64,000 nt of DNA from NCBI GenBank assembly GCA_946699065.1, contig CAMPDV010001084.1, positions 1-64,000 of the forward strand, read 5' to 3'. This DNA is from Loxodes magnus. Lineage: Eukaryota > Ciliophora > Karyorelictea > Loxodida > Loxodidae. Both the position numbers and the translations under genes were made by a program. The notes under the pieces were generated by a model. It worked only from the letters and a program-made list of their open reading frames with translations. It had not been told where the DNA came from and searched no databases. Shown in pieces: positions 16,561 to 62,482 of this stretch; the stretch's first letter is position 1; each line of letters starts with the position of its first letter.

Positions 16561-16810
16561 TGTTACAAATATATAACGAAAAATAAAGCTTAAAACACTA
16601 TATTAATATATTATCTTTTTTAAAGTAACTTTCTTAGATACAAATAATCCTATATTTCTAATTATAACTATTAAAGCTTAAAACATCCTCAAAGTCTCTA
16701 TTTAGTAAGTATGATAAATTAATAATCTTAATTATGTAGATTATAGTGCTTTAATACCATGCTATTATATTAATATTACTATTACTATTTATTTCCTTTA
16801 TAATCAAAAG

Positions 16811-47434: not shown

Positions 47435-50400
47435 TCAAAACACGTCTATTTCTTCAAGTAAGCCTTCAGGTAATAAAAATTCTTCTCTTATTAGTTCCAT
47501 ATCTTCATCATTTTCTTCTTCAATATCTCTTGTTCTTCTGTCTTCTATTTATCTATGTTTTATTGATTCTTTGTTACAAGCGTCCATTATTTTTTTTTAC
47601 ATAATTTGCTAATTTTCGTTTCTAATTCTTTTCTTCTTAATCAAGCTTTTATAAACTCATAAAAATTATCCTTTTCCTGCTCTATAATCTTTTCCAATTT
47701 CTTTTTTCATTCAATTTTCTTTTCTAATATCCTTTTTTTCTTTTTTCTAATATGTTTTTGATATAATCTTTTATTATCAAGTCAGTTTTAGCTCTTTTTT
47801 ACTCTTCTTAGGTTCTAATGAATTTTTCGAATTTTGCCGTACCTCATATTATATCAAATAGTTCCATTCCTTATCTTTCTACTCCTATTGTTCTTAACTT
47901 TCTAATACATATTTATCTACTTTCTTTGTATTCTGAGCATTTTTCTATGATATGCCTTTCGTTTTCTCTTGTATCATTACAGAAAGGGCATTTGCTTGTC
48001 GCAACTAGGTGTCTTTCTTTTAAACAATCCTGGCTCCCATTACATCTCTTTCTTATTCTAAATATGTAGCATATTTTTTCTTTTCTATTTTTATTGTATC
48101 TCAGGTAGTTGGGTGGTCCTACTACATATTCATCAAATCATGTTTTTCTATACTGTAGAGTTGTTATCATTTACTCCATTCTTTCTATATCTTCTATGTA
48201 TACTCTATGTTCTCAAATTGCACGATTAATGTTTTTCTTCCCTTTTTGATTATTATTACCATCATCTATAAATATATTTTTGTCTTCAATTTTTAATTCT
48301 AATTTTATTGTCGTGCAGTATTGTTCAAAAATAAAGTTCTCTTCTTTACTTAGGTCGAACATTAATCCATCTACTGTTTTTCCTTAGTTACCTATTAGTC
48401 TGCCTCTTAATCTCAGCGTTTTCTGCCATAGGTAATGTTTAAATTTCATAAACTGTAACTCGTATTCTAGCATCTCATTTTACACTTAGAAAGGGGCATC
48501 TATGATTGCTCGTAAAGATCTTCTCTATATTATTTCTAATTGTTCCATCACTTATTTTCCTACAAATTATTCACAATATGGGATAATTTCTGTCCCATAG
48601 CTGAATACTGAGCTTACGAACGTTTTTATTATTATTCCTGCGTTATATGATGTTAATCCCTTATTCATTGTTATTTTACCCAGTATTCATGTTTACATCT
48701 TTTATGCTGCTTCTAGTCTGTTCTCCATGTGTTTTTCAAAGCTGATGGTCTCTTCTATTATATGCCCTAGGTACTAGAAGGACGTTACTCTTTCGATTCT
48801 TAAATTTCCCACCTTAATAGTATTGCCTATATTTTCTCAGTTTCTATTTTCTGCTGCTTTTCATATCATTCATTTTGTTTTATCTGCAATTTCCAGTTTG
48901 TATTTTTCTGCCCGTGAGGTTAAATTTTTGATTACTTTCTCTAATTATTCTCATTCACTTATTAAGGCTAGGTCATCTGCATATGCAAAACATCCTGCAT
49001 ATATTTCTTGTCTTCATCCCTCTTAGTTTTTAAAGTCTATCGTAATTCCTAGCTTTTAATCTTCCAAGCTATGGAGGAGTCTTGCTATTATTAAGTTAAA
49101 TAGTCTTGGCGACGTTATGCTTCCCTGTTTTAGTCCTTTATTTGTCGAGAATGATTTTGCTATTTATTCATTGATTTTAAGTTTAATTTCTTCTTCACAG
49201 TAGAAGTTTGCTAGGAGTTTAATTATCTATTCCGGTACTTTTAGATCGTTTAGGATTTATCATATATCTTTTCTTTGCACCGAGTCGTACGCTTTTTTAA
49301 TGTCAACAAATATTACGAAAACATCTTTTTTGTTCCGTATTGATCATTCCTATACTGTTCTTAGGTTGAAAATTTATAGTGAGCATGATTTTCCTTTTTT
49401 AAAGCCATATTAATATTCGCTTTCATCATTATGCAGATATCCTTATAGTTGCTAGAAAATTCATGCATCTACTATTTTTAAAGCATGATTCAGTAAAGAG
49501 ATTGGTCTATAATTCATCGGGTTCATCTGTCCTCCTTTTTTGTATATTAATATTATGTATTATTATTTCATCTCTTAAGGTATTACTCCCTCTTAAATCA
49601 TCTTAACTATCATTTTACATGTTACTTCTGTTAGTTTTTTCCCGCCTGCTAATATTGTGCCTACTTGTATTTCATCAGGTCCTGCTGCTTTTCATTTCGC
49701 CAATTAGTTGATGATTTCTCAAATTTCATATTCGTTTACCACTATTTATCTCTTGCTTAAGAATTTAGTTGGTAACGTATTATCGCCATCTTCATACAGT
49801 TTCTACCATTCATCCCTGAAAGTATTAACATCTTCTTTTAATAAGGGTCCTCAATAATTATTTTTTCTATTAAGTAAATTTTTTAGTTTCTTCCACATAT
49901 CTGTTAGACTTGCTTTATTTACATTGTCCATAAATAGGTTTAGTTAGTTTCTTTTATCTTTTTTTCTTGATTAAATGTATTCTTATCTTACTCTTTGGTA
50001 TTCTCTTTGATTCTCAATTTATTGATTTTCATTTATTTGTTCTCTGTTCTTTACCCTTTATTTTAATTGTTTGCTGCATTTTCTAAAGATTTTATTACAC
50101 TATTTTGTTGTTTCTGAATATTTATATATCTTAGAGTTTTATGTTTTGAATTTTCCTCATACTATTTAAACTCCTTCTTATATCTTTTTCTTTCATCATT
50201 TATAAGTCTATGTGCCGTTTAGGTTATCAATTTCTTCTTCTTAGAGATTTTCTTGTATAAATCTTTCAAATTTTTCTTATATATCTTTTTTCTTTAATAG
50301 TAGGTAGTTTATTTTTGCTATCTTTTATGGCTTTCTTACTTCTTTACCCATCTTTACCTATATAATACCAGGCCTATGGTCACCTATTACGTATGAGTAA

Positions 50401-51398
50401 TAAAAATCACTCTTTAGCACCTTTTCTCTCATTCTCTCTTCGATTAAAAAGTAATATATTTTATACTAATTGTTTTAGTGAATAAAGGTACCTATTTCAG
50501 TTGGGTCTAGGCATATTAAATTATTCTGTGCCATTCTCTTCCCTGCTGAGTTTGTTTTCTTTGGCAGTCATTTTTCTATGTGCGCATTTCAGTCTCCTAT
50601 TATCATTATATTAAGTCCTTTTTCTATTGCTTATAGTTTAAATTCATTCACTAAATTATAGAAAGGCTCATACTGTTCGTTGTTATTTGCAACAGGAGCG
50701 TAAACATTTATTACTGCTAATTATTTCATTATTTCTATTGCCATTACTCTCGCTCCTCCAAAGAGCGTCATTTGGTTTACTTCATTCTATATCTCTCTGA
50801 TCTCCTTACATATGTCGTTTCTAATATAGAATGCTACTCCTTTTCCTTTTTATGATCCCACATTTATTAAGTTTTTATATCCTGCTATATTACACATATC
50901 TTTTTAGTCTTCAATCTAAATTTCTTATATTGCCATTATGTGGATAATTTTTTGAGTCATGAATTTGGCTAATGCCTCTTTTGCACTTCTTACTCCCCTA
51001 ACATTTGCTGTCCCTATTTTTATGACTTATTCTTAATCTTTTTTTACACTCCTTCCCTCTACTTCCTCTTCACCTTATTCTTCTTTTTATTCATCTTCCT
51101 TCTCCACCTTTTCTTCTTCTTATCTATTCTAATCTTCTTCTTTTTCCTTTTCCTATTAGTTGAAGTCGGATAATTGTTCATTTTTTTTATCGGTTTCTTA
51201 GCATAGTACATTCTCATTGAAGTTTGCTTCAATTTACTTCTTTCTTCTCACTTTTATCTTGCATCTTATTCTTTTTCTTTTTGAGTTTGTTCTATTTCTT
51301 TTTGCTTTTTTCCTTTATTTACGTTTTTCTTGACATACTCCATTATACTATTTTGTTTATTTCTTATTTCTTTTGTTAGGGTTTAGCGTTTTTACCAT
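47435..51398 (-). CDS. LINE ORF2: APE endonuclease and reverse transcriptase
   Basis: Starts MVKTLNPNKRNK at 51398. After a basic and then Glu/Gln-rich leader comes an apurinic-type endonuclease (IGTANVRGVRSAKEALAKF, IGDWNAHMEKW, VIGDHRPGI). Then reverse transcriptase: KAAGPDEIQVG, NYRPISLLNHALKIVDA, VDIKKAYDSVQR, and FAYADDLA at residues about 804-811 with both catalytic Asp. The C-terminal zinc motif CPFCNDTRENERHIIEKC starts near residue 1137. The frame holds to an A9 run at about 47590-47598, after which the plausible acidic tail (EEENDEDMELIREEF, ending EIDVF-TGA) is in another frame. That is either a homopolymer error or a real frameshift. Encoded enzymes would nick target DNA and copy the RNA. 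The least damaged LINE here. Confidence 0.9.
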
Positions 51399-52645
51399 CA
51401 CCTATCCTATCCTTTTCTCTAATTTGTTTTATGGTATATCTTATATTTAGTTGATTGTTTTCTATTTTATTTAATTATTTGAACATTTCTCTATCCCTCT
51501 GTCTTACATATGTCCAATTCATTTTGATGAAAAATAATTTTTATTTATTCTTTTAGCGTAAAAAACTTTTTATTATTTAATTGTTTAGTTGTTTTAATTA
51601 TTTTTCTATTCTCCTCATTTTATTTCCTTCTCTTCTTCCCTTGATTCCTCTATAATCATTTATTCTTTCCAATTATCCTATTATTTGCTTGATTTGCTTC
51701 AAAATCTGGTTTGTTTATTGTTAAAATAACTTCTCCTTCAAGCATCTCTAATTCTCTTGTATGTAGCTTTTTCCTTTTTGCTGCTTCTACCCTTCTGCAT
51801 TGCTGGTCTGTGTGCCCTTTCATTTTACATAGGCAGCAGATAAAATTTACTGGGTGTTATATTCTTATTTTGTTTCCATTCAAATCTATTACTTCTGGTA
51901 TCCTCTTTGCTTCGTCTACATCCTTTAAATCTAGGTAGACTACACTGCTCCCTGTTAGCATTATTGTGTTTGGATATGCATGTTATATCTCTCCTCTTGA
52001 TTTTCCATATTATCTTATTATTTCCATTACTTCCTTCATATTTAAGTATTCGTTAATTATGAAGTAAATTGGGTAGTTATGAATGTCAAAATATTCCAAT
52101 TAGTTTCTAGCTTAGATAGGAATTCTAACTCCTTTGAACGTTCATTCCCTGAATTAAGTGAAATGTTAGTATCTTTCTTCATTGTTAAATACCACGTATA
52201 CAATTCCGTTTTATTTCACTATGAACTTCGCCACTGCTTGTCCGTAATCCTTCCATATTTGATTTCTAAACACTTGTATAACTTCTTAGTCTTTGGCCTT
52301 TTTCTCTACTAAATCAGTGTTTTCCAAGTAATGGTTAAAGTAAATTGCGGCCACCATTTCTGATAAATCATCATAGGCATTTATTAGACCCTTTACATTT
52401 ATTCTTCAGGGACGTTGGCTGAAATGAGTTGTTCATTATTTTGTTAAATTATTACTTAGGTTGTTTGCTTTTTTTGCCACATTCCTTTCTTATTTTGTGC
52501 TCCTTCTTTTAGTACAGTTCGACCAATCATGGGTATATTGCTATTTTTTTTCTATTATACGTTCTATTATTTCGTGTTCGTTCGGTCAGTTAGTTTGGTC
52601 CTGCGTAGTCTGAGGTCTTGCATTATTAGTCTGGTTTCCATGCAT
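51398..52645 (-). CDS. LINE ORF1: nucleic-acid-binding protein, 415 aa
   Basis: Intact 1248-nt frame from ATG 52645 (MHGNQTNNARPQTTQ). Middle part: QWTTHFSQRPWRINVKGLIN and YVVFNNEERYQHFTQFREW, with Trp from TGA, reminiscent of the RNA-binding part of LINE ORF1 proteins. Then a CCHC knuckle FICCLCKMKGHTDQQC (CX2CX4HX4C) and a Lys/Arg-rich tail. The stop TGA shares its A with the ATG of ORF2 (TGATG), the arrangement expected for termination-reinitiation. About 140 bp of leader separate it from the terminal hairpin. Confidence 0.88.
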
Positions 52646-60579: not shown

Positions 60580-62482
60580 TCATTCTTTCCAAACTACCAC
60601 AATGTATAATTGATTCTCACATCCTATATCCTTATTACCTGTACTTACCCCCTTTTAAATACTTTTACAAATACAGATACATTCTATAAAATAATAATTA
60701 TAAATATAAAACTTACTTTCTAATTAAGATAATATTAAAAATAGTGTTACGATCTAAAAATTAAAGAGAACTTTAGCTACCTCTTACATACTATTGATAA
60801 AATAAATCATTACGTGCTAAATGGAAGCTTAAAATAAAATTTACTATCTATAGTTTTAAGAATATTAAATGCTTACTTTCTATATTTTTAAGAATACTTA
60901 ATGTTTAACTTACTCCCTATAGTTTTAAGAATATTAAATGTCAAACTTACAAACTATAGTTTTAAGAATATTAAATGTCAAACTTACCATCTATAGTTTT
61001 ATTAATATTAAATGCAAAACTTACTATCTATAATTTTAAGAATATTAAATTTTTACTTACCAGCTATAGTTTTAAGAATATTAAATGTCAAACTTACGCA
61101 CTATAGTTTTAAGGATATTAAAATGTTTAACTTACCTAAAATAAAATTTTTAAAACATGTCGTACCTCCTAAATTATTTATAAAATAACTTACCTTCTTC
61201 TTTAATAAAACGTTTCATTTTTAAGCTTACTTCTCTTCATTTGAAGCATTTCCCCATTTACAATTTATAAACTTGATACAGTTTAATTGTCATTCAGCCT
61301 TTTCTTGTCCTTCAAGATGTCGAGATAGCATTATTATAACTAAATTTATTGCTAGATTTATTCTTTTATCTACTAAATAGTAGTCTCTTATTTGACCTAG
61401 AGCTCTAGTGTTTTATTGTTTGGCGATATTATAGTTATCTAAATATTCTAAAGATTTGCCTATTAAGGAATATTTTAAGGTTATTAAATTTGCTAAGATT
61501 ATACTACTGGTGCCTTTTATTACTTCTGTTAGAATGATTAGCCTTATAGCGAAGATAACTGCCATTACAGATTTTAGATTTATTTCTAATATGATCCTAA
61601 TTATTTCTCTCGCTCTTATTAATACTCTTGATTTTACTATATAAGTTAGTCTATTGTCTCTTATAAATCTCAAATTTATTTCTAATCGGATAAAATTTAA
61701 TTATCTTTCTCTTGTTAGTACTATTGATTTTACTATTTAAGTTAGTCTCTTTCCAATATGGCTTTATTTTAAGACTTCAACAACTAAATCTATAAACCTT
61801 GTATCTATCTCGCTTACTCTTTTATAAACTCTTAATGTTTCTCTATTTATCTTTTACACTTTCATATCTTAGATTTATATTCGATGTTTTATTAGAAAAT
61901 ATTTAAGTTGTAACTAGCTAACTTGCTGTACTCTTACTAAGCTTTTTATAAGATACTTTTACCATTCTCAATCATCTTAATTTATTCTTATCTTGCAAGA
62001 TCACCTTATAAACTTAAGGATTTTAATTAACCTTATATCTCCATCAGAGCAGTTATCTTCTTCTTGGTCAAGACCAGATTACTCTACAAATCCTTTTATA
62101 CATCAGAGCTGTTTGCTAGCAAATATCTTTCAAGATCTTATAAGAATTTATTTACAATCTATAATTTTACTTTAGTTATCTTTTAGACTTCTTAACTAAG
62201 TTCCTTCTCTAAATTTTTTAGAGTATTTAAATCACTTTATAAAGTTGATTATTTGATACTTTATAATAAATCTTCATCGAATTTTAATTTTGCTGGAAAT
62301 ATTTGAGTAATCTCCTTACAACCACCTTTTACACATTAGATTTTGCTAGCATTTAAAAATTTATTATGAATACATTCATAACACATTTAATGTCCGCATA
62401 CAAGGATCATTGGAACCTTCTTCTCATCGTCAAAATTTCCGTTGCAAGCTTCACACTTGATATTTACGGATATTTCAGACAT
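60580..62482 (-). CDS. RING finger-coiled coil-ubiquitin-like protein with micro-exon tail, about 438 aa
   Basis: Exon 1 (62482 to 61231) encodes MSEISVNIKCEACNGNFDD and a C3HC4 RING (Cys10, 13, 29, His31, Cys34, 37, 50, 55). A Gln/Glu-rich coiled coil follows to about residue 345 with an internal repeat (LQETIDQLIQQNQEYQQERE). Residues about 349-417 form a ubiquitin-like fold (ITIISPNNKTLELQV..TIQQIKEQI..RLNDNQTVSSLQI). RING proteins are normally E3 ubiquitin ligases, and the coil would give dimerisation. I infer ligase or adaptor function. The exon ends in phase 1 at GTAAGC, just after the ubiquitin-like domain. The rest is about 17 three-nucleotide exons and a final 14-nt exon with stop TGA 60580-60582, adding 21 residues (ending NTLYQKWGFWKE). 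The alternative is that translation stops early in the array if splicing fails. Confidence 0.8.
60594..61230 (-). other. train of GT-AG mini-introns separated by 3-nt exons
   Basis: Read on the minus strand, every joint is AG-NNN-GT. Introns (plus-strand spans): 61197-61230, 61169-61193, 61101-61165 (two introns of 30 and 35 nt back to back), 61064-61097, 61028-61060, 60991-61024, 60954-60987, 60917-60950, 60880-60913, 60848-60876, 60817-60844, 60791-60813, 60754-60787, 60720-60750, 60684-60716, 60652-60680, 60624-60648, 60594-60620. Exons between them: AAG, GAG, TGC, CTG, ATA, ATG, TTT, GGA, AAA, ATA, CAC, TAT, ATC, AAA, AAT, GGG, GAT. Seven or eight introns are near-identical 33-35-mers (GTAAGT..CTATAG). 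The rest differ in length and sequence but keep the 3-nt spacing. Confidence 0.8.

Follow-up and report, generated by a model that had tools for sequence, protein, structure and literature searches.

A probable array of single-codon exons at the 3' end of a RING-like gene in a ciliate whose genetic code resembles that of karyorelicts

Can the end of a protein-coding gene be put together from exons of one codon each, and where would the introns between such exons have come from? The question is raised by positions 61230 to 60594 on the minus strand of the window (the whole 64-kb stretch of DNA that was analysed), where 19 intron-like units of 23-35 nt are separated by 17 putative exons of exactly 3 nt and by one joint of zero length. 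The units would form the 3' end of a protein-coding gene on the same strand, which combines RING-like, coiled-coil and ubiquitin-like parts. Judging from the sequence, they are probably a real array of spliceosomal introns and microexons in a ciliate that uses a karyorelict-like code, with intron definition as the mode of splicing. All 19 units start with GT and end with AG, 18 of them start with GTA and 17 end with TAG; their mean length is 30.8 nt, and in 15 of the 19 the length is not a multiple of three.

In the direction of the gene the array opens with three front introns (34, 25 and 30 nt; 61230-61136), which were placed by eye and enclose the exons AAG (61196-61194) and GAG (61168-61166). 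These introns show no excess likeness (identity 0.624, compared with 0.640, sd 0.024, for copies with shuffled interiors), and the first of them could instead end at an AG three bases earlier, giving an intron of 31 nt and an exon AAGAAG with the frame unchanged. The zero-length joint TTTTAG/GTAAGT follows at 61136/61135; it has the AG/GT form of a recursive splice site, as far as sequence form goes, and could be a site of that type or the inner joint of a single intron of 65 nt. The young half (61135-60845) then has eight similar introns (35, 34, 33, 34, 34, 34, 34 and 29 nt), each followed by a triplet, in the order TGC, CTG, ATA, ATG, TTT, GGA, AAA and ATA; mean pairwise identity of these introns is 86%, three of them are identical, and Tandem Repeats Finder reports a repeat at 60837-61135 with a period of 37, 8.2 copies and 80% matches. 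The old half (60844-60594) has eight introns of 28, 23, 34, 31, 33, 29, 25 and 27 nt, separated by CAC, TAT, ATC, AAA, AAT, GGG and GAT, and they too show no excess likeness (identity 0.617, compared with 0.622, sd 0.009, for shuffled copies); the 3-nt rule appears to have outlived the likeness of the introns there. The layout bears out the original prediction in its description of consecutive single-codon exons set in AG-NNN-GT joints, of a 37-bp tandem repeat in part of the array, and of a zero-length joint of the recursive type.

The translation of exon 1 (62482-61231, minus strand), together with Pfam, gives a product whose N-terminus is RING-like, followed by a Gln-rich coiled coil and by a ubiquitin-like domain ending ...EMLQMKR. 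The ubiquitin-like region passes the cut-offs of two Pfam families (Rad60-SLD 2e-07, ubiquitin 2.7e-06); for the N-terminus the top RING families, at 7.4e-04, remain under their own cut-offs. The frame of exon 1 comprises 417 codons and is open only if TAA and TAG encode Gln and both of its in-frame TGA are sense codons (Trp). With the phase in which exon 1 ends (phase 1), the spliced tail would read ...EMLQMKR-KGVPDNVWKNTLYQKWGFWKE-UGA, passing through the last exon TTTGGAAAGAATGA (60593-60580) to the stop TGA at 60582-60580, and the spliced frame from ATG to UGA would have 439 codons including the stop, with two TGA read as Trp. The earlier claim that the tail, in the phase set by exon 1, is free of TGA up to a final TGA is correct if exon 1 ends at 61231, before the donor GTAAGC at 61230, and the phase depends on this end. 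An exon 1 extended up to the GTAAGT at 61193 would end in phase 2, and a few codons further on the frame would run into a TGA, which might be decoded as Trp under a karyorelict-like code. The last 21 codons of the spliced frame contain no TAA, TAG or TGA, compared with 18% in the body of the frame (P 0.016). This was counted for the spliced reading, as it matches the pattern upstream of Loxodes stops, where UGA and UAA, but not UAG, are described as depleted over about 20 codons (PMC11441545). Homologue searches gave no match for the whole RING protein and no relative for the ubiquitin-like part together with the tail, the latter result counting against the spliced array.

The code assumed here is that described for Loxodes magnus, in which UAA and UAG are Gln and UGA is both Trp and stop (PMC11441545); it is NCBI table 27, with UGA as Trp within genes and as stop at their end. 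The GC content of the window is 26% by base counts, the TPR and RING frames need TAA and TAG as sense, and the two TPR genes translated whole end in TGA. A LINE-like retrotransposon with endonuclease/exonuclease/phosphatase and reverse transcriptase domains occupies 47440-52645 on the minus strand, its extent being taken from a rough gene finder. In its open reading frame (RVT_1 1.2e-33) there are 20 TGA and 3 TGG in 1111 codons, and Trp is therefore the most likely meaning of UGA there, although just 4 of the 20 TGA columns have Trp as one of the six most frequent residues in 16 homologues. LINEs are reported from both nuclear genomes of L. magnus (PMC11441545). Among organisms described in the literature, Loxodes comes nearest in code, retrotransposons and tiny introns, but the length of the array introns argues against L. 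magnus itself. The window further holds a family of TPR-repeat genes with 102-bp repeats in six copies (at about 0.5-2.0, 8.7-11.0, 18.1-19.3, 24.0-25.2, 31.5-33.8 and 40.8-42.2 kb). The frame of two copies is shifted by a single base, at about 9.90 and 19.03 kb, and one copy contains an in-frame TGA at about 24.8 kb. Five tRNA-Gly (UCC) genes of equal covariance score are found at 16810, 26833, 34740, 38549 and 55862, four of them no further than about 1-2.3 kb from a TPR copy, an arrangement suggestive of joint duplication.

How readily could such a chain arise by chance? When AG-N(k)-GTR joints with k from 0 to 15 were sought on both strands of the 64-kb window, the longest chain had 15 joints with k = 3 and lay at the array; the front three introns precede the zero-length joint and fall outside this chain. 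Constant joints of 0-2 and 4-15 nt formed no chain longer than 3 on either strand, and no comparable 3-nt chain was found elsewhere in the window. Among 60 Markov sequences, each 64 kb long and scanned on a single strand, the longest chain had 2 joints in 41 sequences, 3 in 18 and 4 in one; with k fixed at 3 and any GT allowed, the longest chains in 300 such sequences had 2 (152), 3 (140), 4 (7) and 6 (1) joints. The joints of the young half do not count as independent evidence, since they belong to a tandem repeat. Those of the old half, with its dissimilar introns, do count: seven successive 3-nt joints follow the donor at 60844, and 200,000 simulated continuations from that donor gave 0 (193,214), 1 (6,552), 2 (223) or 3 (11). 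Splice sites and spacing are thus kept in the dissimilar half, as had been claimed, over seven joints where the simulations reach three at most. In the viral contigs searched, a set from which near records may be absent, there was no exact copy of the array and no confirmed TPR relative.

Chain finding relied on GTR and AG alone, and the remaining letters of the splice sites thus provide a separate test. Among the eight donors of the old half, four have AG at +4 and +5 (background 6.6%, P 0.001) and seven have A at +4 (41%, P 0.011), and T precedes AG in six of its seven acceptors (34%, P 0.008). Inclusion of the front three introns, whose placement was by eye, brings the same three signals to 6/11, 9/11 and 9/11, with lower P values. 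The array introns carry the features of U2-type introns, that is GT...AG ends, the GTAAG donor consensus and T or C before AG. The exon triplets also differ from the introns in composition, with 33% GC (17/51), whereas intron interiors have 14% (58/415; P 0.001); taken by itself, the old half shows no significant excess (7/21 compared with 27/158, P 0.07), which weighs against the array. The published mean GC of L. magnus coding sequences is 33.5% (PMC11441545). In summary of this evidence, the DNA contains GT-AG units, exact spacing, a splice-site consensus in otherwise dissimilar introns, an open frame and a contrast between intron and exon.

Further observations count against the array. A home-made gene finder, which is rough and unreliable, recovered only one of its introns (25 nt at 61193). 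The array introns, of which only three of 19 are 25 nt or shorter, exceed the typical introns of L. magnus, for which a mean of 19.3 nt, a mode of 17 nt and 93% at or below 25 nt are given (PMC11441545); for heterotrichs the same source gives 15-16 nt. Also on the negative side, short GTAAG...TAG introns are not in excess outside the array (73 pairs of 15-45 nt, compared with 71 in the reversed sequence), the repeated 20-nt matches mapping either to TPR coding sequence or to a stretch that recurs outside the TPR genes, and no introns were seen in the TPR genes of the window, where two frame breaks are read as single-base shifts. In favour of the array, tiny introns are normal in such ciliates, and the scarcity of multiples of three among its intron lengths agrees with a depletion of such lengths in L. 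magnus (PMC11441545). The gene finder also placed a 20-nt intron in exon 1, which was rejected as implausible because it breaks the frame of the Pfam ubiquitin-like domain. In the neighbouring coiled-coil gene it gave a possible 17-nt intron, GTAAGAAATTCTAGCAG (58766-58750, minus strand), a weak candidate from this program only; 17 nt is the modal intron length of Loxodes magnus.

A different explanation is that the gene ends earlier and that a single intron gave rise to a minisatellite, untranslated or intergenic, whose GT-AG units are not individually spliced; we consider this unlikely. On the one hand, half of the array is a 37-bp tandem repeat, the unspliced frame of exon 1 meets a TGA within the array, and where UGA and UAR are sense open frames are weak evidence. 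On the other hand, the old half holds GT, AG, the exact 3-nt spacing and the splice-site letters without repeat similarity, and all bases of the unit, which in an ordinary minisatellite diverge alike, do not do so here. Mean identity is 86% among the young introns and 30% among their 3-nt exons, a gap of 0.56, and adjacent young triplets share 7 of 21 bases (P 5e-8 under the 86% identity of the introns). For comparison, a generic array pattern was used to fetch 39 loci (5 viral, 34 from genomes); chains of four joints or more were present in 21 of them, all bacterial, which served as controls, and the 18 with shorter chains were dropped. Triplet identity in the controls ranges from 0.44 to 1.0 and is below repeat identity in 10 of the 21, so that some bacterial repeats, too, have joints that are less conserved than the remainder of the unit. 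The most extreme control (L039, 0.44 compared with 0.82) has a gap of 0.38, and the gap of the array exceeds those of all 21, whose repeat identity is raised by the fetching pattern, since this fixes some repeat bases. The contrast in the array is the strongest of the set, yet it is one of degree rather than kind.

It is highly improbable that 61230-60594 is one long intron removed at once, which would give the tail ...KR-IWKE and leave the inner sites as decoys or as sites that are partly used. Skipping of any extent would stay in frame, and skipping of all the exons would lead to IWKE and the same stop, as such a reading would have it; the intron would, however, measure 637 nt, far beyond the range of a ciliate with tiny introns (the mode being 17 nt in L. 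magnus, PMC11441545), and unused inner sites are not expected to keep a 3-nt spacing. Very little likelihood likewise attaches to a pseudogene or an assembly artefact, that is to an array once real or to a collapsed or mis-joined repeat. The frameshifts in two of the six TPR copies do point to some decay or sequencing error, and the two TGA in exon 1 are stops unless UGA is sense, but errors would break the 17 exact spacings in mixed sequence, and exon 1 retains its 417-codon frame with domains that Pfam detects. That the units are TA-bounded internal eliminated sequences of the germline nucleus, removed from DNA and not spliced, is hardly credible, for although the organism is ciliate-like and TA stands at both ends (GTA...TAG) in 16 of the 19 units, GT and AG fit all 19, and excision from TA to TA would leave 7-nt steps and break the frame.

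We return to the reading that we prefer, in which the units are 19 very short spliceosomal introns and the exons between them are single codons; splicing, its order and the making of the tail peptide are what we infer from the features described. Each intron would have to be recognised across itself as a unit, because 3-nt exons are too short for exon definition. Intron definition, which the original prediction had proposed, would be the only workable route with such exons and is supported by the sequence. In the simplest order the introns would be removed from 5' to 3', every step lengthening exon 1 by one codon and bringing it next to the following donor. Such a process would amount to recursive splicing with a remainder of 3 nt, or of 0 nt at 61136/61135, and would end in the mRNA with the UGA-terminated tail given above. 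Since all internal exons are 3 nt long and all joints are in phase 1, any of the exons can be skipped without loss of the frame or of the last codons. The final frame is common to all 131,072 subsets of the 17 exons, and 112,576 of these are free of internal TGA. In-frame skipping would make mis-splicing cheap and the array tolerable, and this may explain why only frame-neutral arrays persist.

The origin of the array is the point at which the original prediction is doubtful as it was stated. It held that the protein grew by one residue per duplicated intron, and the codons next to the similar introns have not been copied along with them; at 30% identity for the young triplets and 86% for the introns, the copies do not include the codon. 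The three identical introns of 34 nt (61097-61064, 60987-60954 and 60950-60917) are preceded by TGC, ATG and TTT and followed by CTG, TTT and GGA, and no target-site duplication or duplicated triplet was seen around them. Duplication of the whole unit followed by neutral drift was ruled out, as identical introns are flanked by different triplets on both sides. On the other hand, exact 3-nt spacing is what frame selection on duplicated units of intron and codon would be expected to give, whereas inserted introns could sit anywhere. Either the introns alone were copied, in the manner of introners or by reverse splicing, or the introns were homogenised while the codons were under selection, or the codons diversified very fast. 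With homogenisation, the array would be older than its introns suggest, these having been evened out by short exchanges while selection held the codons. As for copying, it is possible, though we hold this with little confidence, that introns were copied with their borders at the splice sites into successive codons of a pre-existing tail, each 3 nt from the last junction, as if by reverse splicing one codon off register and reverse transcription. A LINE is present in the window, and the array occupies a 3' end, where cDNA-based events are expected. If it were true, splicing would act as a ratchet moving one codon per step, with up to 131,072 in-frame exon combinations per gene.

The elements of the array would be ordinary introns and microexons, and it is their arrangement that seems new. 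Recursive splice sites are known from very long animal introns; the array shares their AG/GT form at 61136/61135, but its introns are only about 30 nt long, and its 3-nt joints would act in a similar way with a remainder of one codon. In schistosome micro-exon genes, as would be the case for the array, a protein is built from many small symmetric exons, but those exons are mostly of 6-36 nt and the introns are long. Tiny ciliate introns have GT-AG ends and are recognised by intron definition. Like the array introns they measure tens of bases and are mostly not multiples of three, as far as the published account describes them (PMC11441545), whereas those of the array are longer, with the mean given above, and are stacked 3 nt apart. 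Plant microexons of 1-15 nt are on record, with 1-nt cases in APC11 and VPS55 and, in rice, two adjacent microexons of 5 and 12 nt (PMC8831610). By length and flanks (at most about 30 nt, between two introns) the 3-nt exons are candidate microexons, their inclusion being predicted, and like some plant and animal microexons they are no longer than a codon, lie between ordinary GT-AG introns and are easily missed by annotation. The microexons in the account cited stand singly or with few neighbours, in contrast to the unbroken run of 17 in the array, each 3 nt long and set among introns of 23-35 nt. Introners, which are transposon-derived families of introns, resemble the array in that near-identical introns lie in coding sequence and the copied unit is approximately the intron itself (PMC9860276). 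They differ in being spread over many genes, often with target-site duplications or inverted ends, where the array has eight copies in one tail with a fixed 3-nt spacing and no target-site duplication. In the open-licence PubMed Central literature, covered mostly by titles and the beginnings of abstracts, no array of single-codon exons or of consecutive microexons was recognised, ciliates included.

To our knowledge no other gene is so finely divided, and we know of this arrangement of introns and microexons nowhere else. If the gene is spliced as read here, its 17 consecutive one-codon exons would be the finest exon division known to us, and the array would be a natural test of a spliceosome that works by intron definition alone. 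The birth of introns, a long-standing question, would also become open to direct test, since a series of similar introns flanked by different codons distinguishes the duplication of intron and codon together from the insertion of an intron.
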